Shown here: piece by piece, positions 1-1,595 of the stretch | Position numbering within the stretch: position 1 is the stretch's first letter | How the letters are laid out: the number at the start of each line of letters is the position of its first letter | Source: Candidatus Methylacidiphilales bacterium | Lineage (GTDB): Bacteria > Verrucomicrobiota > Verrucomicrobiia > Methylacidiphilales > JAAUTS01 | Assembly: GCA_028713655.1 (NCBI GenBank) | Contig: JAQTNW010000026.1 | Location: forward strand, 1-45,393 | DNA length: 45,393 bases | Direction: 5' to 3' | Program-made: the position numbers and the translations under genes | Notes under the pieces: generated by a model | The model's input: the letters and a program-made list of their open reading frames with translations, nothing else | Told to the model about the DNA's origin: nothing | Database searches by the model: none

Positions 1-110
1 GCAAACCGCTCGACTTTTGCCAAACGCTGAAATATCGAATCCTCAGAATTCTGCGCATGCGTGGAAATGACAGTAAGAACGAAAAAAGTAATAATCAGGC
101 TCAGTTTCAT
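1..110 (-). CDS. Partial integron-cassette gene for a secreted protein
   Basis: The gene starts at 110 and runs off the left edge of the window, so only 36 codons are visible. The product begins MKLSLIITFFVLTVISTHAQ, a classic Sec signal peptide with a probable signal peptidase I cut after THA. The mature part begins QNSEDSIFQRLAKVERF. It starts 9 bases after the cassette boundary hexamer at 119-124, as expected for a gene that follows an attC recombination point. Its own attC would lie beyond the window. The function is not recognised; export to the periplasm or beyond is inferred from the signal peptide. Confidence 0.6.
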   Translation of the reverse strand, partial: MKLSLIITFFVLTVISTHAQNSEDSIFQRLAKVERF

Positions 111-118
111 TTTTCTAA

Positions 119-229
119 ATCGAACGTTACGCATCAGGCATGACCTGCGACGGCGCGGCTCCTGCCGGAGCGTAGCGACAAGCAGGAGGCGTGACGAAGT
201 AGGTCATTGGCTGGATGCGCTGGTTAGAC
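119..229 (-). other. Integron attC site (left copy)
   Basis: Read on the minus strand the site runs from the R'' box GTCTAAC (229-223) to the R' box GTTCGAT (125-119). Between them, GCGCATCCAGCCAATGACCT pairs imperfectly with AGGTCATGCCTGATGCG, giving the long arm with unpaired bases typical of attC. The centre holds further short hairpins (GCTCC/GGAGC, CTCCTGC/GCAGGAG). It is identical in its body to the site at 949-1059. Only the terminal core bases differ, because they belong to the next cassette. Confidence 0.8.
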
Positions 230-462
230 GGTTTGTTCTACTGAGCGTAAATCCGGTTCCGCAAAAGTCGAGAAATCTCCCTCTCGATCTTGATCCTAAT
301 CCAGAGTTTTTCCACCCTGCCGCGTTGACCAAGTCCTTTTGAAATTTCACCATCAACTCGGCCCGTATTTTTTGTCTTTCCGCAAGATGTTGCTCAACCG
401 ACAGACTTTTGCAGCCGGGGGCGATAATCGAAACATCTGATTTCATTTTGTGTCCGTCTAAC
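121..462. repeat. 342-bp direct repeat, copy 1 (duplicated gene cassette)
   Basis: This segment matches 951-1292 over 342 bp with one difference, g at 450 against a at 1280. Its ends fall exactly at attC core boundaries, so the repeat is one integron gene cassette plus the shared core bases, not a random duplication. Confidence 0.95.
204..446 (-). CDS. Hypothetical integron-cassette protein, copy 1
   Basis: This is an 80-residue product identical to the one at 1034-1276. It begins MKSDVSIIAPGCKSLSVEQH. A probable amphipathic helix follows (residues 16-40, rich in Glu, Arg, Lys, Leu), then a basic Gly/Ser/Arg stretch. The frame stays open further upstream in this copy, but the ATG at 446 is chosen because it sits 10 bases inside the cassette and is shared by both copies. 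The last codons and the stop lie inside the attC site, which is common for cassette genes. No family is recognised and no membrane segment or signal peptide is seen. Confidence 0.45.
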   Translation of the reverse strand: MKSDVSIIAPGCKSLSVEQHLAERQKIRAELMVKFQKDLVNAAGWKNSGLGSRSRGRFLDFCGTGFTLSRTNRLTSASSQ

Positions 463-629
463 GCTAAGCTCACCCACGGCTCTCTGGAAGCGGCGGCTGG
501 CAGCAAAACGGTGCAAGGCGAAGGCGCGGAGGCTGCGGAAGCAGCGTCCGTGACTGAGCCGGTGGAGTTGTGACCGCGCTTTTAAACGACCCGCGCGGAG
601 AGCCGTTGGTGTGCAGCGCCTGGTTCGGT
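456..629 (-). other. Integron attC site (middle)
   Basis: On the minus strand it runs from R'' ACCGAAC (629-623) to R' GTTAGAC (462-456), about 174 bp. The arms GGCGCTGCACACCAACGGCT and AGCCGTGGGTGAGCTTAGC are imperfectly complementary, and the inner ends GAGAGCC/GGCTCTC pair exactly. R'' matches the first hexamer of its own cassette (TTCGGT at 954-949), while R' takes its last six bases from the following cassette. That is the expected signature of integrase-mediated insertion. Confidence 0.75.
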
Positions 630-633
630 GTTT

Positions 634-939
634 TCATGTGATTGTGATTCCATCCGATTCACCCACTAAATTGAAGCTTCCATCCGGTGATTGCATTTCT
701 ATCTGGGGTCGCTTCTCGTCTCTTTCAAGGACGGCGATCTCCTGCCCATTAATTGGGCCAATACCGATTGCTTTTCCGTCAGTTGGGTATGCCAGTGTGG
801 TATCGCGAGCGATGCGCTCCCAAGTGTGGGTTTCATATACGCCGCGACCTGAGTGCGAAATGGCGAGTAAATAGTTCCCTGAGGCATCAAATCCCATGGC
901 GACTAAACCACCGATTAATAAATGCTTGCGTGGATTCAT
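634..939 (-). CDS. Hypothetical integron-cassette protein, 101 aa
   Basis: The gene lies between the attC sites at 949-1059 and 456-629 and fills its cassette almost completely. The product begins MNPRKHLLIGGLVAMGFDAS. It reads as alternating short beta strands and turns (FDASGNYLLAISHSGRG, then YPTDGKAIGIG, then PDGSFNLVGES), which resembles one or two blades of a WD40-like propeller. No catalytic motif, clear signal peptide or strong membrane helix is seen. The ATG at 939 lies about ten bases after the core hexamer, as in the neighbouring cassettes. The function is unknown. Confidence 0.55.
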   Translation of the reverse strand: MNPRKHLLIGGLVAMGFDASGNYLLAISHSGRGVYETHTWERIARDTTLAYPTDGKAIGIGPINGQEIAVLERDEKRPQIEMQSPDGSFNLVGESDGITIT

Positions 940-948
940 GTTTATTTC

Positions 949-1059
949 ACCGAACGTTACGCATCAGGCATGACCTGCGACGGCGCGGCTCCTGCCGGAG
1001 CGTAGCGACAAGCAGGAGGCGTGACGAAGTAGGTCATTGGCTGGATGCGCTGGTTAGAC
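949..1059 (-). other. Integron attC site (right copy)
   Basis: On the minus strand it runs from R'' GTCTAAC (1059-1053) to R' GTTCGGT (955-949). The body is identical to the site at 119-229. R'' is the exact complement of the first hexamer of its cassette (GTTAGAC at 1292-1286), as expected for a cassette that once existed as a circle. Confidence 0.8.
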
Positions 1060-1292
1060 GGTTTGTTCTACTGAGCGTAAATCCGGTTCCGCAAAAGTCG
1101 AGAAATCTCCCTCTCGATCTTGATCCTAATCCAGAGTTTTTCCACCCTGCCGCGTTGACCAAGTCCTTTTGAAATTTCACCATCAACTCGGCCCGTATTT
1201 TTTGTCTTTCCGCAAGATGTTGCTCAACCGACAGACTTTTGCAGCCGGGGGCGATAATCGAAACATCTGATTTCATTTTATGTCCGTCTAAC
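951..1292. repeat. 342-bp direct repeat, copy 2 (duplicated gene cassette)
   Basis: This is the partner of 121-462, with one substitution (a at 1280). It lies 830 bp away, separated by one unrelated cassette. Confidence 0.95.
1034..1276 (-). CDS. Hypothetical integron-cassette protein, copy 2
   Basis: The 80-residue product is identical to that of 204-446; the only base difference between the copies lies upstream of the start codon. This copy is first in the array, next to the presumed attI end, and so would be nearest to any cassette promoter. No family is recognised. A helical, charged middle part and a basic tail are all that can be read from the sequence. Confidence 0.45.
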   Translation of the reverse strand: MKSDVSIIAPGCKSLSVEQHLAERQKIRAELMVKFQKDLVNAAGWKNSGLGSRSRGRFLDFCGTGFTLSRTNRLTSASSQ

Positions 1293-1345
1293 AGTATTAT
1301 TCAACCACCGGTGTTTGTATCTGGTTAAAGGCCACCGGTGCTATA
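1286..1345 (-). other. Array end and candidate attI region
   Basis: The rightmost core GTTAGAC (1292-1286 on the minus strand) has no clear attC fold on its right side, so this should be the attI end of the array. The adjoining 50 bp hold two copies of the palindrome CACCGGTG at 1306-1313 and 1333-1340, 27 bp apart, which could be recombinase-binding sequences. attI sites are poorly conserved, so this is inference from position. Confidence 0.35.
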
Positions 1346-1456
1346 TCACAGATCAATACCACCCAAAATCGGGAGATTCGTCTTTGGTGCTTCATTTGTG
1401 GGATTTTTGCACTCCGATAGCTTCCGATCAAGAAAATCCACGGCGTCCTGCAGCAT
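1346..1456 (-). CDS. Very short open frame, unrecognised
   Basis: A 36-residue frame (MLQDAVDFLDRKLSECKNPT...) lies where the start of the integrase gene should have been. It has a helical N-terminus. There is no clear ribosome-binding site, and it may be chance or debris from the event that destroyed the integrase gene. Confidence 0.15.
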   Translation of the reverse strand: MLQDAVDFLDRKLSECKNPTNEAPKTNLPILGGIDL

Positions 1457-1520
1457 TTTCACATAAACACATTTATTCCTTCTGAATGTTTAACAGGTGA
1501 CAATTTTGAAAAAATCCGGA

Positions 1521-1595
1521 GACATCACCACGATGATCTATACCCACGTCCTCAACCGCCCGGGGATCGCCGTCGTGTCGCCGTTGGACGAGTGA
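1521..1595 (+). pseudogene. intI: Integron integrase (IntI), C-terminal remnant
   Basis: The plus strand encodes GDITTMIYTHVLNRPG followed by IAVVSPLDE and a stop at 1593-1595. This is the hallmark end of integron tyrosine recombinases: T-T-x-I-Y-T-H-V-L with the catalytic Tyr, then the short Ser-Pro tail. The rest of the usual roughly 320-residue protein is missing, and a stop (TAA) lies in frame at about 1492. The direction fits an integron exactly, since intI should read away from the cassettes, which extend leftwards. The remnant cannot be active. Confidence 0.75.

Follow-up and report, generated by a model that had tools for sequence, protein, structure and literature searches.

The left end of a contig from a Methylacidiphilales genome very probably represents the attI-proximal end of a chromosomal integron from which the integrase gene intI has been deleted, that is, a cluster of attC sites lacking integrase (CALIN; Cury et al., summarised in PMC8618304) produced by loss of intI. 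The window, by which we mean the whole stretch of DNA analysed, comprises 45,393 nucleotides (G000:C26:1-45393) and forms the left part of its contig in a genome of 3.29 Mb (95% complete, 90 contigs). According to GTDB, JAAUTS01 is a family within Methylacidiphilales, Verrucomicrobiota (PMC11080526). The features of the locus are listed in Table 1; the array is cut by the contig end. The genes for F1 ATP synthase subunits epsilon, beta, gamma and alpha start at 1793 on the same contig, which gives the array a chromosomal location. Between the intI stub and atpC, the stretches 1600-1650 and 1733-1780 belong to two families of short interspersed repeats that recur many times in the genome. None of the cassette ORFs of the window belongs to a family from Pfam or NCBIfam, and the 80-aa ORF has no relative among the viral contigs searched.

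Table 1. Features at the left end of the window (C26; start and end in nucleotides)
Feature	Position	Strand	Evidence or remarks
Cassette 4, partial	1..124	-	Crossover-point start TTCGAT; start set by attC 119-229
Cassette 4 ORF, secreted or lipoprotein-like, begins MKLSLIITFFVLTVISTHAQ...	within 1..124	-	Cut by contig end
attC of cassette 3	119..229	-	R3 56.0 bits, E 3e-12; R1 97.2 bits
Cassette 3, copy of cassette 1	125..460	-	335/336 identical
attC of cassette 2, 174 nt	456..629	-	R3 24.3 bits, E 4e-4; R1 45.7 bits
Cassette 2 with 101-aa ORF (634-939), no known family	461..954	-	
attC of cassette 1	949..1059	-	R3 55.0 bits, E 5.5e-12; R1 96.6 bits
Cassette 1, attI-proximal; 80-aa ORF at 1034-1276, overlapping its attC	955..1290	-	
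attI-like site	1288..1356	-	81% identity over 69 nt to equivalent position at C22 array
intI stub, last 23 codons and stop, including catalytic tyrosine motif MIYTHVL	1524..1595	+	TIGR02249, C30 IntI

The intI stub, the attI-like site and an intact integrase

What is left of the integrase at this locus? The peptide ending VVSPLDE (1524-1592) had been recognised as the C-terminus of an integron integrase in the preliminary description, and it does match TIGR02249 at positions 292-314 (E 2.4e-4, genome-wide). Moreover, 21/21 residues are identical to the C-terminus of a second IntI, encoded on contig C30 of the same genome. The two genes are separated by seven synonymous codon differences in this region, with amino-acid changes confined to the last residue and to the first codon beside the breakpoint. 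The synonymous differences suggest that stub and C30 intI diverged while both were functional, 23 codons being few for such a comparison. The orientation of intI and array, described earlier as that of known integrons, is borne out by the strand and side of the stub. No other recognisable part of intI is found at 1291-1523, and contig C26, the attI-distal end of the array lying off it, contains no TIGR02249 match besides the stub. With 23 codons left, this is not a complete integron, in which a functional intI adjoins attI. A deletion from about the start of the gene to codon 435, after a period of function, would have left what is seen: the 3' stub, attI and the cassettes.

The C30 gene is intact and encodes an IntI of 457 aa beside its own cassette array (L013:2786-4159). 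The protein scores 424 bits against a TIGR02249 cut-off of 265, and its residues 144-456 align to the structure of Vibrio cholerae IntI4 (2a3v), the IntI-specific insertion included. Judged by score and alignment, C30 IntI has the additional domain specific to IntI together with the catalytic motifs of tyrosine recombinases. The canonical part is preceded by about 143 residues, and a second SAM-like domain match falls in this N-terminal extension. The extension is common to many relatives in other phyla. The closest named IntI match lies on JAAUTS010000001.1. Fragments on C14, C61 and at C30:38408 have no recognisable intact integrons alongside.

The attI-like site resembles a stretch on contig C22 that likewise borders a cassette array on its attI-proximal side, and the identity between the two sites starts at the cassette junction. 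The C22 array is the second without an integrase, and no recognisable intI remnant was found on that contig. From position and similarity we infer that the 69-nt site serves as attI of both arrays; it was not found in the other genomes of the order. Comparison of the attI sides of the window and of C30 revealed no similarity beyond a few bases (P 0.88); two types of attI thus appear to be present in the genome. Could the C30 integrase have inserted the cassettes at a secondary site that lay near an IntI fragment, with no complete integron ever present here? A full-length IntI is available on C30, off-target insertion is among the proposed origins of CALINs (PMC8618304), and the attI-like site does differ from the C30 attI; however, both the side and the strand of the stub are as expected, and a second array, that of C22, has the 69 nt of the junction at the same position relative to its cassettes, which fits an attI but not a random site. 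This makes the route improbable. Deletion of intI, itself one of the proposed origins of CALINs (PMC8618304), is the reading we prefer.

Another genome of the family, G001, also has a C-terminal IntI stub, about 30 codons long (G001:C120:40861-40950; L100:6862-6951; minus strand). It lies 43 bp downstream of an intact intI and is similar in extent to the stub of the window. The recurrence of C-terminal stubs may reflect a common route of recombination.

Cassette movement and the other arrays of the genome

Each cassette had been described as starting with a hexamer complementary to the R'' box of its own attC. This holds for 3/3 cassettes of the window and extends to the arrays of genomes G000, G001 and G011: in 40/58 cassettes R'' agrees with the start of its own cassette at each of the four variable positions, against 4.4 with shuffled starts, and 0/10,000 shuffles reached 40. 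A match between R'' and R' of the same attC is seen in only 6/58. Agreement of R'' with its own cassette rather than with R' marks cassettes that were inserted as circles. The array would have been assembled one cassette after another, the attC of each circular cassette recombining as a folded bottom strand with attI or with another attC, and recombination would have set the TTRRRY start of the cassette against the previous site.

At least four copies of cassette 1 are present in the genome, namely cassettes 1 and 3 of the window, one on C44 (334/338 identical) and one on C43 that is cut by the contig end. Identity between the copies stops at the crossover points and the flanking neighbours are not alike, which indicates movement as a cassette. 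Both copies in the window have a run of five T where those on C43 and C44 have six, and compared with the C44 copy, whose 69-aa ORF stops just short of the attC, the 80-aa ORF of cassette 1 is frameshifted. Because the one-base deletion shifts the frame, the ORF of cassettes 1 and 3 is probably broken in the window.

A search for more cassettes and for an intact intI had been suggested, and both were found within the same genome. Besides the C30 integrase, covariance model R1, in whose training set the window sites were included, identified 50 attCs (E < 0.01) on 14 contigs. C44 and C43 are richest in attCs, C7 and C22 also carry several, and the longest array piece, on C44, contains at least 14. 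Several of these sites are 85-96% identical to those of the window; the genome therefore has the many similar attCs that characterise a sedentary chromosomal integron. Cassettes elsewhere encode HicB-like antitoxins, ParE/RelB-type pairs and a PemK/MazF toxin, a predicted cargo typical of chromosomal integrons. The word "remnant", used in the preliminary description, suits the C26 locus, where intI has been lost, but not a genome with an intact integron on C30 and about 50 attCs.

Several contigs end within arrays, as repeats would lead one to expect, and one may ask whether repeated attCs and the multiple copies of cassette 1 caused a chimeric join of array contigs to the atp contig. Positions 1291-1595, however, lie outside the repeated cassette and are single copy except for the matches to the C22 site and to intI, and cassettes and stub stand in the expected order and orientation. 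An assembly artefact is accordingly very unlikely, less likely still than off-target insertion.

Two further cassettes deserve mention. Cassette 4 of the C30 array (L013:894-1179) is a hybrid: in its 3' half and attC it nearly duplicates cassette 1 of that array (2092-2651), and its start, unlike that of most cassettes, does not match its own R'' box. It looks like a product of recombination or deletion. On C44 (L115:11820-12305), a PemK/MazF-type toxin gene with a small ORF upstream does not share the strand of the other cassette genes but lies on the opposite one.

Recognition and folding of the attC sites

The three sites at 119-229, 456-629 and 949-1059 had been read from the letters of the sequence, and a scan as well as the covariance models R1 and R3 returned exactly these coordinates. 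In the scan, relaxed boxes (RYNNAAC...GTTNNRY) were combined with arm complementarity over 45 kb. The three attCs obtained the top three scores (13.4, 14.4 and 13.4), whereas 0.1 matches scoring at least 13 are expected per 45 kb. Strict RYYYAAC/GTTRRRY boxes gave no match in the scan because the attCs of the window have G at box position 4. Model R2, derived from 14 short attCs from outside Verrucomicrobiota, did not match the long attCs of the window; elsewhere in the genome it gave six significant matches (E < 0.01), all coinciding with R1 sites. Since R2 missed the long sites, R3 was built without any attC of G000, from 70 sites in two further genomes of the same order; its sequences are independent of G000, its structure is inherited, the alignment having been made by R1. 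Searched against the 45-kb window, R3 recovered exactly the three attCs, as the proposed covariance-model check had anticipated, and no further match in the remainder.

Covariation in the attC stems reached 0.473 in alignment A1, compared to 0.147 after shuffling and at most 0.060 after sliding, with many compensatory changes; the corresponding values for the other genomes are 0.442 and, shuffled, 0.137. For attC 119-229 the bottom strand with respect to the cassettes is the plus strand, and this strand folds at -31.7 kcal/mol (z -5.05 versus shuffles), whereas the minus strand shows no fold excess over shuffles (z -1.12). This strand asymmetry is as expected of an attC. For the 174-nt attC, of which only the minus strand was folded, the fold was unremarkable. 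The attCs of the window have the conserved fold and the boxes by which integrons are recognised. Chance inverted repeats between small ORFs, interspersed repeats for instance, can be dismissed with near certainty, for although the genome is rich in short interspersed repeats and long attCs resemble generic hairpins, the idea is refuted by the independent R3 matches and opposed by the covariation, the box logic and the IntI stub, and 57/62 genomes of the order have no R1 match.

Relation to known integrons and possible service in trans

The system is a known kind of gene capture, of which the locus is a well-supported further example. Like other CALINs, C26 has at least two consecutive attCs, here three, and lacks a functional intI next to attI; unlike them, it still displays the route by which it arose, the attI-like site and the 23-codon stub being present. 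It thus offers a clear snapshot of an integrase-less cassette cluster arising by deletion of intI. About one third of the intI genes in PMC2426708 are pseudogenes. As in these cases, the C26 integrase is inactivated while cassettes remain and a second integrase exists in the genome, but the gene is almost wholly deleted rather than point-mutated or frameshifted. The genome as a whole resembles sedentary chromosomal integrons such as the Vibrio cholerae superintegron in its similar attCs, an array beside housekeeping genes, and cassettes mostly without known function with some toxin-antitoxin modules. It differs from that superintegron in having its roughly 50 sites spread over 14 contigs, with contigs that break in arrays and no fewer than three attI-like ends. 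In length and domains, with an N-terminal extension containing a second SAM-like match, C30 IntI is comparable to the long-form integrases of clade 15, which a single gene fusion has lengthened by about 120 aa (PMC2426708); unlike clade 15 as described, its host is a Verrucomicrobiota genome.

Does loss of the integrase end the activity of such a platform? An IntI acting in trans can excise the cassettes of a CALIN or capture them (PMC9668308). As a full-length IntI is kept on C30, the cassettes beside atpC are probably still excisable or movable in trans, the C30 enzyme acting on the C26 array, to judge from the genes present. The C26 attI-like site is unlike the C30 attI, which weakens the case for service in trans. 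More tentatively, and with lower probability, a single long-form IntI might serve several separate platforms, among them C26 and C22, which lack an integrase and share an attI type of their own; cassette 1 and others like it would then circulate between arrays, and a platform would stay active after losing its integrase. What is new here is the C26 locus, the two apparent attI types in one genome, and the possible service in trans by one integrase. If C30 IntI does work in trans on two attI types, this genome would lend itself to testing the idea of multi-platform integrons.

An array of this kind had been thought uncommon in Verrucomicrobia. This view does not hold for the phylum, which is already on the published list of integron-bearing phyla (PMC8618304): 109 of 388 sampled genomes (28%) encode an IntI above the curated cut-off, as do 97/312 of the better genomes in the sample. 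The snapshot at C26 is therefore set in a phylum in which integron integrases turn out to be frequent. Within the order integrons are sparse, with R1 attCs in 5/62 genomes. In the phylum sample, IntI frames often measure 400-550 aa and sometimes occur in several copies per genome.
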